In this document: positions 57,591 through 64,000 of the stretch, in pieces | Position numbering within the stretch: the stretch's first letter is position 1 | How the letters are laid out: every line of letters begins with the position of its first letter | Origin: Neptuniibacter sp. | GTDB lineage: Bacteria > Pseudomonadota > Gammaproteobacteria > Pseudomonadales > Balneatricaceae | Direction of reading: 5' to 3' | Assembly: GCF_024231755.1 (NCBI RefSeq) | Contig: NZ_JAAEQH010000104.1 | Span: 1 to 64,000 of the forward strand | DNA: 64,000 nt | The notes under the pieces: model-generated | Told to the model about the DNA's origin: nothing | Database searches by the model: none | The model's input: the letters and a program-made list of their open reading frames with translations, nothing else | Program-made: the position numbers and the translations under genes

Positions 57591-57611
57591 ATAAGTGAGA
57601 CGTTGGACGCT

Positions 57612-60407
57612 ATGAGCTACTATTCTGAGTACCTAGAAGAAATTGAGGTTCGTAAAAAGGACCTGGGTCTAAACCCAAAACCAATCGATAGCGCTGAATT
57701 GCTATCTGAAATCATTGCCCAGATCAAAGACACGGGTAATGCGGAGCGCGAAGCATCTCTAAACTTCTTCATCTACAACACTCTACCTGGTACTACTCCA
57801 GCGGCTGGCGTTAAAGCTGCTTTCCTAAAAGACATCGTTCTGGGTAAAGAAACAGTTGCAGAGATCTCTGCTGAGTTCGCTCTTGAGCAGCTTTCTCACA
57901 TGAAAGGCGGTCCTTCTGTTGAAGCTCTGCTAGATATCGCGCTGTCTGACGATGCTCAGGCTGCTGCTGCAGGCGAAGTCCTGAAATCTCAGGTATTCCT
58001 ATACGACGCAGACACTACTCGTCTGGCTGACGCTTTCAAAGCGGGCAATGCCATCGCTAAAGAGATCCTGGAAAGCTACGCGAAGGCTGAGTTCTTCACT
58101 AAGCTGGATGACATTCCAGAGAAAATCAAAGTTATTACCTACATTGCTGCGGAAGGCGACATCTCTACTGACCTTCTGTCTCCAGGTAACCAGTCTCACT
58201 CACGTGCTGACCGTGAACTGCACGGCAAGTGCATGATCTCTCCAGAAGCTCAGCAAGAAATTAAGAAGATGGGTGAAGACAACCCAGACGCTAAAGTGAT
58301 GCTGATCGCTGAGAAAGGCACCATGGGTGTAGGTTCTTCCCGCATGTCTGGTGTAAACAACGTTGCACTGTGGGCAGGTGAGCCAACTTCTCCATACATC
58401 CCGTTCGTAAACAACAAGCCGGTTGTTGCGGGTACTAATGGTATCGCGCCTATCTTCCTGACAACTGTTGGTGTAACTGGCGGTATCGGTCTTGACCTGA
58501 AAAACTGGGTTAAGAAAACTGACGCAAACGGCGAAGTTGTTCGTGATGAAAACGGCGATCCAGTACTGGAAGAAGCATACTCTGTTGCGACAGGTACAGT
58601 TCTGACTATCGATACTAAAGCTAAGAAGCTGTACAACGGCGACGAGGAACTGGCTGATATCTCAGACGCGTTCACACCACAAAAAGTTGAATTCATGAAA
58701 GCGGGCGGTTCTTACGCGGTAACATTCGGTAAGAAACTGCAAACGTTTGCTGCTGAAACTCTGGGCGTTGAAGCACCAGCTGTTTACGCACAGTCTAAAG
58801 AGATCTCTAACGAAGGCCAGGGTCTGACAGCTGTTGAGAAAATCTTCAACCGCAACGCTGTAGGCGTAGCTTCTTCTACTCCTCTGCACACAGGTTCTGA
58901 CGTTCGCGTTAAAGTGAACATCGTAGGTTCTCAGGACACTACTGGTCCTATGACTTGCCAGGAACTGGAAGCGATGGCTGCTTCTAAAATCTCACCAAGC
59001 GTTGATGGTGCCTTCCAGTCTGGTTGTCACACAGCGTCTGTATGGGACAACAAAGCTAAGGCAAACACACCTAAGTTGATGGCATTCATGAACGCGTTCG
59101 GCGTAATCACTGCACGTGACCCGAAACACGTTTACCACTCAATGACTGACGTTATTCACAAAGTACTGAATGACATCACAGTTGACGACCGCGCTATCAT
59201 CATCGGTGGTGACTCTCACACCCGTATGTCTAAAGGTGTAGCGTTCGGTGCTGACTCCGGTACTGTTGCGATCGCACTGGCAACGGGTGAAGCAGCAATG
59301 CCTATCCCAGAGTCTGTGAAAGTAACCTTCAAAGGTTCTATGAAGCCACACATGGACTTCCGTGACATCGTACACGCGACTCAAGCGCAGATGCTGAAGA
59401 AGTTTGCTGGCGAAAACGTATTCCAGGGTCGTGTAATCGAAGTACAGATCGGTACTCTTCTGGCTGACCAGGCGTTCACGTTCACTGACTGGACTGCAGA
59501 AATGAAAGCGAAAGCTTCTATCTGTATCTCTACTGACGACACGCTGATCAAGTCTCTGGAACTGGCTAAGTCCCGTATCCAGATCATGATCGACAAAGGC
59601 ATGGAAAACGAAGCGGGCATGCTGGCTGGCCTGATCGAACTGGCTGACAAGCGTATCGCTGAAGTTAAATCTGGCGAAGCTCCTGCTCTGGCTCCAGACG
59701 ACAACGCTAAGTACTACGCTGAGCTGGTTGTTGACCTGGACGCAATCGACGAGCCAATGATCGCTGACCCAGACGTAAACAACGAAGACATCTCTAAGCG
59801 TTACACGCATGATGTAATCCGTCCAACTTCTTACTACGATGGCCGCCAGGTAGACCTAGGCTTCGTTGGTTCTTGTATGGTTCACAAAGGCGACATGCAG
59901 ATCATCGCTGCGATGCTGCGTAACCTGGAGAAGAAAGGTCCTATCACCTTTAAAGCTCCACTGGTTGTTGCTCCACCAACATACAACATCGTTGACGAGC
60001 TGAAAGCTGAAGGCGATTGGGAACTGCTGGAGAAATACGCTGGCTTCGAATTCTCTGACGAGAATCCAAAAGAAGAAGCGCGTACTAAGTACGAAAATAT
60101 TCTGTACCTAGAGCGCCCTGGCTGTAACCTGTGTATGGGTAACCAGGAGAAAGCAGAAGCAGGTGATACTGTACTGGCTACTTCTACTCGTTTGTTCCAG
60201 GGTCGTGTTGTAGAAGACTCTGCTGAGAAGAAAGGTGAGTCTCTGCTGGGCTCTACGCCAATGGTTGTTCTGTCTTGTATCCTGGGTCGTTTCCCGACTC
60301 TGGAAGAGTACAAGGATGCCGTTGAAGGTATTAACCTGACATCTTTCGCTCCACCAAGCGAAGATCTGAGCGTAGCTCCACAGGCGATTCCAGCTGCACG
60401 TATCTAA
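57612..60407 (+). CDS. acnB: aconitate hydratase AcnB-type
   Basis: From ATG 57612, 931 residues (a TTG at 57603 precedes). N-terminal HEAT-like domain, then swivel part (KVMLIAEKGTMGVGSSRMSGVNNVALWAG) ahead of the catalytic part, the AcnB order. Fe-S ligands in GCHTAS, and CNLCMGNQEKA near the C-terminus; IIGGDSHTRMSKGVAFGADSGTVAIA is family-specific. It works in the TCA cycle and may act on 2-methylisocitrate. Codon bias is the strongest of all genes here, so it is the main aconitase. Confidence 0.95.
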   Translation: MSYYSEYLEEIEVRKKDLGLNPKPIDSAELLSEIIAQIKDTGNAEREASLNFFIYNTLPGTTPAAGVKAAFLKDIVLGKETVAEISAEFALEQLSHMKGGPSVEALLDIALSDDAQAAAAGEVLKSQVFLYDADTTRLADAFKAGNAIAKEILESYAKAEFFTKLDDIPEKIKVITYIAAEGDISTDLLSPGNQSHSRADRELHGKCMISPEAQQEIKKMGEDNPDAKVMLIAEKGTMGVGSSRMSGVNNVALWAGEPTSPYIPFVNNKPVVAGTNGIAPIFLTTVGVTGGIGLDLKNWVKKTDANGEVVRDENGDPVLEEAYSVATGTVLTIDTKAKKLYNGDEELADISDAFTPQKVEFMKAGGSYAVTFGKKLQTFAAETLGVEAPAVYAQSKEISNEGQGLTAVEKIFNRNAVGVASSTPLHTGSDVRVKVNIVGSQDTTGPMTCQELEAMAASKISPSVDGAFQSGCHTASVWDNKAKANTPKLMAFMNAFGVITARDPKHVYHSMTDVIHKVLNDITVDDRAIIIGGDSHTRMSKGVAFGADSGTVAIALATGEAAMPIPESVKVTFKGSMKPHMDFRDIVHATQAQMLKKFAGENVFQGRVIEVQIGTLLADQAFTFTDWTAEMKAKASICISTDDTLIKSLELAKSRIQIMIDKGMENEAGMLAGLIELADKRIAEVKSGEAPALAPDDNAKYYAELVVDLDAIDEPMIADPDVNNEDISKRYTHDVIRPTSYYDGRQVDLGFVGSCMVHKGDMQIIAAMLRNLEKKGPITFKAPLVVAPPTYNIVDELKAEGDWELLEKYAGFEFSDENPKEEARTKYENILYLERPGCNLCMGNQEKAEAGDTVLATSTRLFQGRVVEDSAEKKGESLLGSTPMVVLSCILGRFPTLEEYKDAVEGINLTSFAPPSEDLSVAPQAIPAARI

Positions 60408-60665: not shown

Positions 60666-60968
60666 CTACAAAACTGCTTTAAACCCTTCAAACTTAGGTG
60701 GACCAAGGTAAATATCTTTAGCCGGTTTCGCATTGGCGTGCGCTTTTCTGAATGCTTCGGATTTGGTCCAGCCAATGAATGCCTCTTCTGATTCCCACAC
60801 GCTATGGGAAGCAAACAATGTGCACTCTTCATCGGTGGCTCCTTGCATCAGGTTAAAGCTTTTGAAGCCTGGTACTTCGTCCAGGTAGGTTTCCCGATTT
60901 TTCCAGATCTCTATAAAGTCCTGCTCCTTGCCCAGAGCGATACGGAAGCGGTTCATTGCAACGTACAT
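60666..60968 (-). CDS. ABM-fold protein (haem-degrading monooxygenase-like)
   Basis: A 100-residue protein starting MYVAMNRFRIALGKEQDFIEIWKNRE, then VPGFKSFNLMQGATDEECTLFASHSVWESEEAFIGW. The strand-helix-strand pattern with an Asn in the first strand and a conserved Trp is that of the antibiotic-biosynthesis-monooxygenase/IsdG superfamily. Members degrade haem or oxidise small quinones. It lies 36 bases after the Rieske-GGDEF-EAL gene on the same strand, probably in one transcript. AAGGAA precedes the start. Confidence 0.75.
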   Translation of the reverse strand: MYVAMNRFRIALGKEQDFIEIWKNRETYLDEVPGFKSFNLMQGATDEECTLFASHSVWESEEAFIGWTKSEAFRKAHANAKPAKDIYLGPPKFEGFKAVL

Positions 60969-61004: not shown

Positions 61005-63980
61005 TTAGGTTCTTTTGATACTTCGCTGGGAGACGAAAGTAAAGAACTCATCGGTCGAAAGAGGTTTTGAGATCAGGTAACCCTGCGCTTCTTCGCAACC
61101 AAGCGCTTTGAGAAGTTCCAATTGAGCTTGCTCCTCGACCCCTTCAGCGATGATTGTCTTTTCCATGATAGAGCCTAGATTGATGATCGACTCGACAATC
61201 GCTCTTGCCTGTTTTGAGTGTTCAATATCATTTATAAAACTACGGTCTATCTTCACTCTCTCTACTGGCAGAGATGCGAGATAGGATAGAGAGGAGTATC
61301 CGGTTCCGAAGTCGTCCATGGCGATACTGATGCCAAGGTTTTTGAGTGCCTTAAGTTGTGCCATGGCAAATTCAGGATCAGACATCGCTGCTGTTTCAGT
61401 GATCTCCAGTTCAATATACTCTGCAGGTATATCGTACTCCTGTAGCAAATCAGAAAGCTCCTCAACAAAATTGCCATCCTTTAGCTGGACCGTTGATAGG
61501 TTGATCGCGATCTTTGGTGGAGTAATACCCTGTTGAAGCTTGCTCCGCAGAGTAGACAATGTTTCCTTTAGCACCCATTCGCCAAGCTCAAGAATCAAGC
61601 TACTTTGCTCAGCAATTGGAATAAATTCTGCCGGGGATATAAAACCCAAATGCTGACTATTCCAGCGTAAGAGCACTTCAGCGCCAACTATCTGGCTGTC
61701 TTCAATCAATATTTTAGGTTGATAAACAAGGCAGAGCTCATTGTCTCGTATTGCTTTGTGAAGATGGATTTCGATCAGGTGTTTTCTCTGTATTTTGGAC
61801 TGTAGTTCCTGATCATAGTAGTAATAGCCTGGACCTGAGCCTGCTTTAGCGGCATACATTGCCATATCAGCATTACTAAGTAGGGTGCCAGTTTCTAGTC
61901 CATCTGTTGGAATTAGGGTAATCCCGATGCTAATGCCGATATGTATCAAGTGATCATCGATCTGATAAGGCTGTGTTATGGAGTCGATTATTCTATCTGC
62001 CAATTCTCCAGGCGTTTTCAGAGATGATATATCCGCCTGAATGATGGCAAATTCATCGCCACCTAACCTCGCAACTACATCTGCTTTTTCTACGCAATTC
62101 AGTAGTCGTTGAGCAACTAGCTGAAGTAGTGTGTCACCGCACAGATGTCCCAGTGTATCGTTAACATCTTTGAAGTTATCCAGATCCATAAACAGCATGG
62201 CTGAGTGCTTTTGGTTGTGTTTAGCACTCAGTATTGCGCTTTCCAGGTGGTTAAGGAAAAGAGGGCGATTGGGCAAATCTGTCAGAAGATCGTGTTCTGC
62301 TTGATAGCGTAACTGGCTCTCTGCTTGTTTCTGTTTGGTTATGTCAGATTTCAGCGATAGGAAATGGGTGATGGCGCCTGAGGAATCTGTGATCGGAGAA
62401 ACTGTCATATACTGCCAAAACTTCTCACCACTTTTTTTGCGGTTGATGATTTCGCCTTTCCATCGATTGCCATTTTTTATGGTTTGCCACAGATCTTTGT
62501 AAAATCTATCTGACATCTCACCCGATTGGACTAGGTTGGATTTTTTGCCAATTGCCTCACCTGCGCTGTAGCCAGTATTTTCAGTAAATATTGGGTTTAC
62601 ATATACAACGATGCCATCAGTATCGGTAATGATCACTTCGTGGGAGCTTTGTTCTACAGTCGAGGAGAGTAAGCGAACATGTTCCTCAGCTTCACGGCTT
62701 TGGGTGATGTCGCGTGTAGTGATAACGAAACCGCCAGAAGGCATAGGGTACGATTCACATTCGATCACATTTCCGCATTCGTAAAACAACAACCACTTTT
62801 GTTTGGCTTTAGAAAGTTGTTCTGGTTCAGGGGAAGGATTATCACCAGTCAATTCATGAGTGATTCGACAGAGTTGAGTGATATGCGGCAGCTGTTGTAA
62901 TAGCTCTTCCCTAAAACCGCCATTGCTAGAAAAGGGCGGGTTCCATACTTGTAGATGTCCATCTGGTCCAAACATAGCAACACCCTGGCCCAAAGTGGCA
63001 AGTGTGTTTTTTAGTTGGCTTAGGTGAGATTCAAGATCCTGCTGACGTTTAATATGTTCACTTTGCTTAACCCTGGAGATGTCGGTTGCTGTGAGAATAA
63101 GGCCTTCCTCTTTTCCCGCATGAGAATAAAGAAGGGTGCCGCGCAACAGGAAATGTTTATCGGTAATACTTTGGCCGTTGGTGTTTTGTGATTTAAAGCA
63201 AACCTCTCGCTCGAATTCACTGTTCTTGTATACGGCCCGGTAAATATGCGGGCGCTGGTCCCACTGTTGAGATGGTGTAGCGTTAACAAGTTCCTCTAAT
63301 ACTGAATCGCAGAGAATATTATCTGGTGATGTACCTAAAAGTGAGCTGGCATTGCACTCAAGGATATTTTCCGCATAGCTATTAACGCGGGTAATTCTCC
63401 CTTGACTATCAGTTACTATCAGAAACTCATCAATTGAATTGGTAATGCAATCTATTAACTCATTTGCTGTTTGCAGGTCACTATTTCTATGCTCAAGCTC
63501 CGTTTTTTTATTTTCTACCTGGGTCAGCATTTGGTCCATAGATTCCAGATTAGAGAGGACCTTTTTCTGTAGGGCGGAATTGGCAGACCTTAAAACCTTT
63601 ATTTCTTGTTCTTCTTTCGTTTCATCCTTTTGCGAAGGTTCGATTAGAGCAACTTTTATATTCTTGTTTGTTACAGGAATAAATCGGCTATTCTGTTTTT
63701 GTACCTCAATGCTATTAGGGCCACTTGATAATGCGGTAACCAGTCCATGATTCGGGCAGATGATGTTGCCGTTCTTATCCAGTCGTGCTTCAAGAAGCGA
63801 AGCTTGACCATGGCTGCAGAGCAGCGGTATAGCGAAGTATCTACCCTGATATTCAGCGACCAACAGCTCGGTATCTGAATTTTCCCGTTTACCAACCCAG
63901 CGAGTACGACCCTGCACCACCTGTTCATGCTGAATTGTGATGCTGTCTTCAATTTCTGCATGAATGTCCGCTTGTGTCAT
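61005..63980 (-). CDS. Rieske-PAS-GGDEF-EAL c-di-GMP signalling protein
   Basis: A 991-residue soluble protein; ATG 63980 with AAGGAGG 7 bases upstream. Domains: Rieske-like [2Fe-2S] (about 15-110) with C55-x-H57, 17 residues, C75-x2-H78; coiled coil (about 120-170); PAS (about 175-295); a second PAS-like region (about 310-430); a clear PAS (about 435-555, VVYVNPIFTENTGYSAGE); GGDEF (about 565-730) with an intact RLGGDEFAII; EAL (about 745-990) with EVLLRW, ELEITE, DDFGTGYSSLSYL, KIDRSF and AEGVE all present. Both cyclase and phosphodiesterase residues look intact. The Rieske module should sense redox or iron state. No membrane segment. Confidence 0.9.
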   Translation of the reverse strand: MTQADIHAEIEDSITIQHEQVVQGRTRWVGKRENSDTELLVAEYQGRYFAIPLLCSHGQASLLEARLDKNGNIICPNHGLVTALSSGPNSIEVQKQNSRFIPVTNKNIKVALIEPSQKDETKEEQEIKVLRSANSALQKKVLSNLESMDQMLTQVENKKTELEHRNSDLQTANELIDCITNSIDEFLIVTDSQGRITRVNSYAENILECNASSLLGTSPDNILCDSVLEELVNATPSQQWDQRPHIYRAVYKNSEFEREVCFKSQNTNGQSITDKHFLLRGTLLYSHAGKEEGLILTATDISRVKQSEHIKRQQDLESHLSQLKNTLATLGQGVAMFGPDGHLQVWNPPFSSNGGFREELLQQLPHITQLCRITHELTGDNPSPEPEQLSKAKQKWLLFYECGNVIECESYPMPSGGFVITTRDITQSREAEEHVRLLSSTVEQSSHEVIITDTDGIVVYVNPIFTENTGYSAGEAIGKKSNLVQSGEMSDRFYKDLWQTIKNGNRWKGEIINRKKSGEKFWQYMTVSPITDSSGAITHFLSLKSDITKQKQAESQLRYQAEHDLLTDLPNRPLFLNHLESAILSAKHNQKHSAMLFMDLDNFKDVNDTLGHLCGDTLLQLVAQRLLNCVEKADVVARLGGDEFAIIQADISSLKTPGELADRIIDSITQPYQIDDHLIHIGISIGITLIPTDGLETGTLLSNADMAMYAAKAGSGPGYYYYDQELQSKIQRKHLIEIHLHKAIRDNELCLVYQPKILIEDSQIVGAEVLLRWNSQHLGFISPAEFIPIAEQSSLILELGEWVLKETLSTLRSKLQQGITPPKIAINLSTVQLKDGNFVEELSDLLQEYDIPAEYIELEITETAAMSDPEFAMAQLKALKNLGISIAMDDFGTGYSSLSYLASLPVERVKIDRSFINDIEHSKQARAIVESIINLGSIMEKTIIAEGVEEQAQLELLKALGCEEAQGYLISKPLSTDEFFTFVSQRSIKRT

Positions 63981-64000
63981 GCAGCCTCCTTCAGTTGAAC

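Follow-up and report, generated by a model that had tools for sequence, protein, structure and literature searches.

Group 2c of the [NiFe] hydrogenases is entered in the HydDB table as putative and diguanylate cyclase-linked, with an undetermined role, and its members may sense hydrogen (H2) and act via cyclic di-GMP (c-di-GMP) (excerpts of PMC5037454). The excerpted text of PMC4853749 gives the group 2c motif as SFDxCLVCTVH, with SHDaCLVCTVH in Thiomargarita, and raises the possible co-transcription of these hydrogenases with diguanylate cyclases/phosphodiesterases. How exactly the group 2b pair HoxBC/HoxJ senses its signal is described as still being investigated (excerpts of PMC6978683). 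Among c-di-GMP enzymes, DosP, CdgF and AxDGC2 have their GGDEF/EAL output steered by a redox or gas cue through haem- or flavin-PAS domains (excerpts of PMC8846402 and, for DosP, of PMC4263535), and the text of the former, a review from 2022 on the sensory inputs of c-di-GMP, contains no occurrence of hydrogenase, iron-sulfur, 2Fe-2S, Rieske or molecular hydrogen. Hydrogenase neighbours excerpted from PMC12727194 include an EAL/GGDEF/PAS cluster and a NifU/Rieske cluster, with no mention of a fusion. Here, we analysed a stretch of 64,000 nucleotides from Neptuniibacter sp. (positions 1 to 64,000 of contig NZ_JAAEQH010000104.1, assembly GCF_024231755.1; hereafter the window), in which the reverse-strand gene at 61005-63980 encodes a 991-residue protein with a Rieske domain, a coiled coil, three PAS domains, a GGDEF domain and an EAL domain, and which adjoins genes of a [NiFe] hydrogenase. 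No report of a Rieske-PAS-GGDEF-EAL architecture was found in the open-licence literature, subscription papers and the original group 2c description lying outside that scope. The protein represents a variant of a known, uncharacterised kind, in which the partner of a group 2c-type hydrogenase bears a Rieske head.

The Rieske gene starts with ATG only 20 bases short of the window end, with AAGGAGG 5-11 bases upstream of this start codon, and the genes preceding it, on the same strand, lie mostly in the part of the contig beyond the window. It is the fourth gene after those of a hydrogenase small subunit (contig 65995-66951, L012:5996-6952; PF01058 and PF14720), a [NiFe] hydrogenase large subunit (contig 64471-65976; PF00374, 285.5 bits) and a hydrogenase maturation protease (PF01750), the last of which has its 3′ end in the window (63977-64000) and runs on to contig position 64534. 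Because the protease gene stop and the Rieske gene start overlap by 4 bases, the four genes are likely co-transcribed as an operon. Two other species of the genus (G001 and G010) share this gene set and its order. Inspection of the two hydrogenase subunits by eye revealed no export leader, and a promoter scan, which returned 2 sites compared with 10.8 in shuffled sequences, was not used.

Within the 991-residue protein, the Rieske [2Fe-2S] domain (residues about 14-104; 63669-63941) is followed by a long helix or coiled coil (residues 120-182; 63435-63623), PAS 1 (residues 183-303; 63072-63434), PAS 2 (residues 328-433; 62682-62999; PF12860), PAS 3 (residues 440-543; 62352-62663; PF00989), the GGDEF domain (61842-62300) and the EAL domain (61062-61763), all encoded on the reverse strand. 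The PAS-GGDEF-EAL layout read earlier from the sequence was thus borne out, except that three PAS regions are present instead of one. PAS 2 and PAS 3 scored above their Pfam cut-offs, while PAS 1 fell just below (PF13188, PAS_8, 20.8 versus 21.8 bits) and was therefore called on the structure model, in which it matches known PAS structures (best 3lyx_A, Z 12.7, root-mean-square deviation 3.1, 118 residues aligned); it also matches a kinase profile, as described below. The AlphaFold2 model built with 12 sequences reached a mean predicted local distance difference test score (pLDDT) of 84.1, and that built with three sequences was poor (68.5). NCBIfam domain models for GGDEF and the sensory box were above cut-off, and no NCBIfam equivalog was above cut-off among the best 25 of 55 rows, where the best equivalog match was the phosphodiesterase DibA (553.7 versus 980 bits).

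Several lines of evidence identified the N-terminal head as a Rieske domain. PF00355 scored 27.7 bits in the whole protein against a curated gathering cut-off of 20.3 and 32.5 bits on the N-terminal 114 residues alone, and this N-terminus was one of six places in the genome found with PF00355 (expect value, E, 2.8e-7). The proteins of the two genus relatives were likewise above cut-off (G001, 25.3 bits; G010, 26.5 bits), and all 12 operon-linked heads described below matched at E 0.01 or better. The ligand set CxH-17-CxxH that the original prediction had placed at residues 55-78 was confirmed as C55-x-H57-(17)-C75-xx-H78 (63747-63818), and these four residues are invariant in 12/12 aligned operon-linked proteins. 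A profile of the 12 heads matched solved Rieske proteins, with 3d89 as the best (E 1.8e-5), as well as the Rieske ferredoxins CarAc (E 2.9e-5), T4moC (1.4e-4) and the biphenyl dioxygenase ferredoxin (1.9e-4), and the N-terminus alone gave a weak dioxygenase ferredoxin match in NCBIfam (HcaC, 30.9 versus 150 bits). The domain resembles these ferredoxins in ligand motif and profile match, and differs from them in forming part of a signalling protein encoded next to a hydrogenase. In the AlphaFold2 model the region is beta-rich (residues 14-102), with block pLDDT values of 81-91 over residues 11-100. Structure searches with the whole model returned mainly PAS proteins in the best 50 rows each, which filled the listed rows and make the missing Rieske entries uninformative.

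Since the head recurs in 12 operons with its ligands invariant, despite only 19-38% identity of the other 11 heads to the one studied here, its presence is more than chance. The same divergence, together with the moderate profile scores, would also suit a Rieske fold retained for protein-protein docking with the hydrogenase, its cluster being structural or vestigial; yet only ten of the 125 alignment columns are invariant across the 12 heads, and the four ligands stand among them, which makes this explanation highly improbable. A redox role of the head is likely. The Pfam scores, the matches to solved ferredoxins and the conservation over 12 operons support the earlier suggestion that a c-di-GMP enzyme here has a Rieske domain as its unusual input module.

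To place the operon among its relatives, large-subunit searches covered 369 class genomes, 121 relatives of G390, 115 relatives of G210 and 299 phylum genomes, as overlapping sets; these and the other genome searches are samples in which few candidates were scored per genome (at most 4 to 6; 4 in the class set and 5 in the phylum set for the large subunit), and members may be missed. In total, 30 operons in 29 genomes were collected, comprising those of our genome, G001, G010, G390 and G210 and the 25 loci that represent all others at E 1e-140 or better in the G390-relative, G210-relative and phylum sets. A GGDEF-EAL partner was encoded in 22 of the 30 operons. Twelve of these partners carry the Rieske head (our genome, G001, G010, G588, G575, G516, G621, G527, G563, G539, G536 and G674), and they span four family labels (f1, f181, f212 and f246) and eight genus labels; this is the count that domain searches gave for the operon-linked architecture. 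The other ten are PAS-GGDEF-EAL proteins without PF00355 (G390, G510, G511, G512, G523, G210, G628, G641, G634 and G637). Five operons encode a PAS-histidine kinase-receiver partner (G546, G782, G709, G749 and one of two in G689), two a PAS-GGDEF partner (G739 and the other G689 operon), and in one (G627) the partner gene is cut by the contig end. The protease gene is present in 22/30 operons. The order small subunit, large subunit, protease, Rieske protein recurs in nine genomes besides our genome, G001 and G010, and in all 12 Rieske-bearing operons the Rieske gene follows directly after the protease gene.

At closer range, the Rieske gene was found in 3/11 genomes of the genus, and the N-terminal 182 residues were matched in 5/144 genomes, namely our genome, G001, G010 and two short free-standing Rieske proteins. 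Candidate fusions elsewhere were rejected: the matches in G075 and G076 are open frames of 104-121 residues, as are those obtained with a Rieske-only profile in 56 relatives of G674 (G670, G724, G793 and G667). A scan of the genome contigs for the N-terminus gave 66 pattern matches, with one confirmed, a 2275-residue protein (L013) taken as chance, in whose matched part no Rieske motif was seen. Plasmids gave no match at E 1e-5. A motif scan for a separate Rieske gene among open reading frames of <300 residues in the ten fusion-free operons found a single 163-residue frame (L079), which was taken as chance because it lies away from the operon and overlaps a longer unrelated reading frame. In the sets searched, with only some candidates scored per genome, the Rieske-PAS fusion was thus seen only in hydrogenase operons, and such searches would miss a Rieske domain fused to other modules.

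This distribution bears on the main rival explanation, under which the Rieske domain would sense oxygen, redox poise or iron supply independently, receive no electrons from the hydrogenase and act as an additional input that can gate or veto the H2 signal reaching the PAS module from the hydrogenase. The absence of the head from 10/22 GGDEF-EAL-linked operons is as expected of an add-on input, and so is its position N-terminal to a complete helix-PAS module, but the restriction of the fusion to hydrogenase operons, within the limits just given, favours a wired or hydrogenase-specific role over that of a free redox sensor, and we regard an independent input as rather unlikely.

The hydrogenase itself fits HydDB group 2c, in which we place it provisionally, by motif and linkage. 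Its L2 motif, SHDPCLVCTVH, has H for F relative to the quoted group 2c motif and is otherwise identical, and a GGDEF-EAL gene lies within the operon, as in the linkage to diguanylate cyclases and phosphodiesterases that characterizes the group; the difference is the Rieske head, which goes unmentioned in the excerpts of PMC5037454 and PMC4853749. A maximum-likelihood tree was built from 35 large subunits, comprising the 30 operon rows and five comparison rows that were labelled 2a or 2b by gene neighbours and motifs instead of HydDB. The 2c-type rows are separate from these self-labelled 2a-like and 2b-like rows and fall into two groups, one (100/99) of the GGDEF-EAL-linked rows and G627 and the other (100/98) of the rows with a kinase or GGDEF-only partner. 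On this tree, the Rieske label takes two changes, which may be two separate gains or an early gain followed by a loss. The tree carries warnings for a long branch (G546), for the long branches by which the 2a and 2b rows join and for a deviating residue composition in G010 and G001.

In the large subunit, the Ni/Fe-binding residues C60, C63, C482 and C485 and the last His are kept in 35/35 rows, 30 of them of 2c type. In the small subunit, nine cysteines are kept in 35/35 rows and His203 in 32/35 (Gln in three). At small-subunit position 20, which is the second Cys of the N-terminal CxxC in the 2b rows and Asn in the 2a-like rows, the 35 rows have Asp (29), Glu (1), Asn (3) or Cys (2), and our small subunit has Asp where 2b has Cys. 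Given Asp/Glu at this position, an unusual ligation of the proximal cluster is possible in the 30 2c-type small subunits. Group 2b regulatory hydrogenases have a large subunit without a C-terminal extension. Our large subunit departs from this pattern, extending 13 residues past the last His (range 11-16 across the 30 rows), whereas the two 2b rows, so labelled by motif and neighbours, end at that His.

Such a C-terminal peptide, together with the protease gene, resembles catalytic hydrogenases and would suit an ordinary uptake enzyme, for which the Rieske head would be an electron acceptor en route elsewhere and the GGDEF-EAL part would report turnover or be a passive fusion. The match of the head to electron-carrying Rieske ferredoxins would agree with this, as would the operon of G588, near which a second hydrogenase large-subunit-like gene lies on the opposite strand (L114:10610-12076). 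Against it, no reductase or oxygenase gene directly adjoins the operon on its strand in the stretches read by eye, relatives have kinase or GGDEF partners, and the GGDEF and EAL residues are kept in 22/22 partners, so that we consider an uptake enzyme of this kind improbable. Downstream of the operon of G516, HypD/HypE-type maturation genes were read by eye (L116:1105-3301).

The segment between the Rieske domain and PAS 2, consisting in the AlphaFold2 model of the long helix and PAS 1, links the protein to group 2b. Two Rieske-free partners aligned at full length begin at the long helix. A Rieske-helix-PAS 1 profile searched against the 369 class genomes (E 1e-12, up to six candidates scored in each genome) matched in 14, of which only our genome matched from the Rieske part onward and the other 13 from profile position 121 or later. 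Of these 13, two belong to G390 and G210, whose 2c partners match from the helix onward. Among the remaining 11, nine lie 0.1-6.7 kb and one 12.4 kb from a separately found group 2 large subunit, and one on another contig. Seven of the 11 proteins were scanned, and 7/7 have PAS and HATPase_c domains, with HisKA above cut-off in six and just below in one. In 4/11 loci, read by eye, the kinase is flanked by a response-regulator frame on one side and a CGGC-type small-subunit frame on the other; the remaining seven show fewer such frames or an illegible stretch. Kinase-receiver partners of the 2c-type operons (L122, L129, L132, L133 and L134) were also seen to start with a similar-looking helix-PAS segment, with no PF00355 match.

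By profile-profile comparison, the helix and PAS 1 matched three 2b-linked kinases of the genus, both as eight partner rows (E 1.6e-9, probability 96.3) and as the three Rieske proteins of the genus (E 1.5e-8, probability 95.5). PAS 3 of the same three proteins, used as a control, reached only E 0.0069 and probability 5.5, a difference to be read with caution, because the control is shorter and helix-free and the kinase match comes partly from the helix. These profiles indicate homology between the coiled coil plus PAS 1 and the input region of HupT-like kinases encoded next to group 2b H2-sensor hydrogenases. Together with the kinase-linked profile matches, this makes the helix and PAS 1 look like a common partner module of group 2 sensor-type hydrogenases, to which the Rieske domain was added as a head. 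Our system thus resembles the 2b pairs of HoxBC/HupUV and HoxJ/HupT in that a two-subunit hydrogenase adjoins a coiled-coil/PAS protein with a homologous input region, and differs in that its output is GGDEF-EAL instead of a histidine kinase and in having a Rieske head. By analogy with the HoxBC-HoxJ model (excerpts of PMC6978683), we infer that the helix and PAS 1 form the two halves of a module docking on the hydrogenase.

The original prediction had described both output domains as intact, which agrees with their Pfam scores (GGDEF, 153.8 bits; EAL, 245.6 bits, both well above cut-off) and their motif residues. The GGDEF motif and what we take to be the EAL catalytic residues, in our protein E768, N827, E859, D889, D890, K910, E946 and Q966, are complete in 22/22 GGDEF-EAL partners. 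The 991-residue protein therefore probably makes or destroys c-di-GMP. At the presumed position of the RxxD inhibitory site, R is found in 19/22 partners, and E or S in the three from the window's genus (E at the first position in our protein).

Taken together, we lean towards the view that the four-gene operon is an H2-responsive c-di-GMP switch in which the redox state of the Rieske cluster sets c-di-GMP turnover. The group 2c-type hydrogenase, matured by its own protease, would oxidise or bind H2 and would dock on the coiled coil and PAS 1, as group 2b hydrogenases are held to do with HoxJ/HupT. In Rieske-bearing operons, electrons might then pass along the iron-sulfur chain of the small subunit to the N-terminal Rieske cluster, whose oxidation state, relayed through the coiled coil and the PAS array, would set GGDEF synthesis against EAL breakdown. 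The strictest version of this scheme, with H2 electrons wired through the hydrogenase into the cluster and cluster reduction itself flipping synthesis and breakdown, is put forward tentatively, at somewhat less than even chances. As for the sign of the output, that the reduced state favours the phosphodiesterase is a guess based on what the excerpts of PMC8846402 list for CdgF and PdeC. Like DosP, CdgF and AxDGC2, such a switch would let a redox or gas cue steer GGDEF/EAL output, with an iron-sulfur head in place of haem- or flavin-PAS.

Four further points weigh against this switch, besides the caution attached to the PAS 3 control. Because 10/22 GGDEF-EAL-linked operons have no Rieske head, the head is dispensable for hydrogenase-to-c-di-GMP coupling in general. 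The loss of RxxD in the window's genus means that the output may differ between lineages. The 11-16-residue large-subunit extension and the protease gene in 22/30 operons are features of catalytic hydrogenases. Finally, the potential of the Rieske cluster could be unsuited.

On the other side of the Rieske gene, the window holds an HmuQ-type haem-degrading protein gene (60666-60968, reverse strand; 152.1 bits versus a cut-off of 130), from which a haem/iron context had been suggested. This context was rejected, since the distribution of HmuQ across the genus does not follow that of the operon: the gene occurs at 80% identity or more in 8/11 genus genomes, ours included, compared with 3/11 for the Rieske gene, and G001 (91% complete) has the Rieske gene and no HmuQ match. 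The HmuQ neighbour looks incidental, and the telling context is the hydrogenase operon past the window end. Adjoining HmuQ, an aconitase-like gene (57603-60407, translation read by eye) lies on the forward strand, opposite to the operon. Two further [NiFe] hydrogenase sets were read by eye on other contigs of the genome (L046:7264-11066 and L049:6582-9466), one with a PAS kinase, its kinase domains confirmed by Pfam, and a 2b-type regulatory hydrogenase, and the other with a group 1-type hydrogenase that has a leader and a cytochrome b-like gene, which brings the genome to at least three [NiFe] hydrogenases on this reading. In G010, the 2b-type large subunit (L047:6871-8323) is split into two open frames, by interruption or assembly error, and the Rieske operon is retained despite this.

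The cluster-bearing head offers a concrete, spectroscopically visible candidate for the signal that a hydrogenase partner transmits, and a single hydrogenase clade supplies natural controls, some members having the head and others lacking it. If the proposed switch holds, iron-sulfur clusters would join the inputs of c-di-GMP networks, a direct electron-transfer route would connect an energy source with a second messenger, and the role of group 2c-type hydrogenases in these lineages would be explained. The presence of H2 may, via its electrons, thereby become a lifestyle signal.

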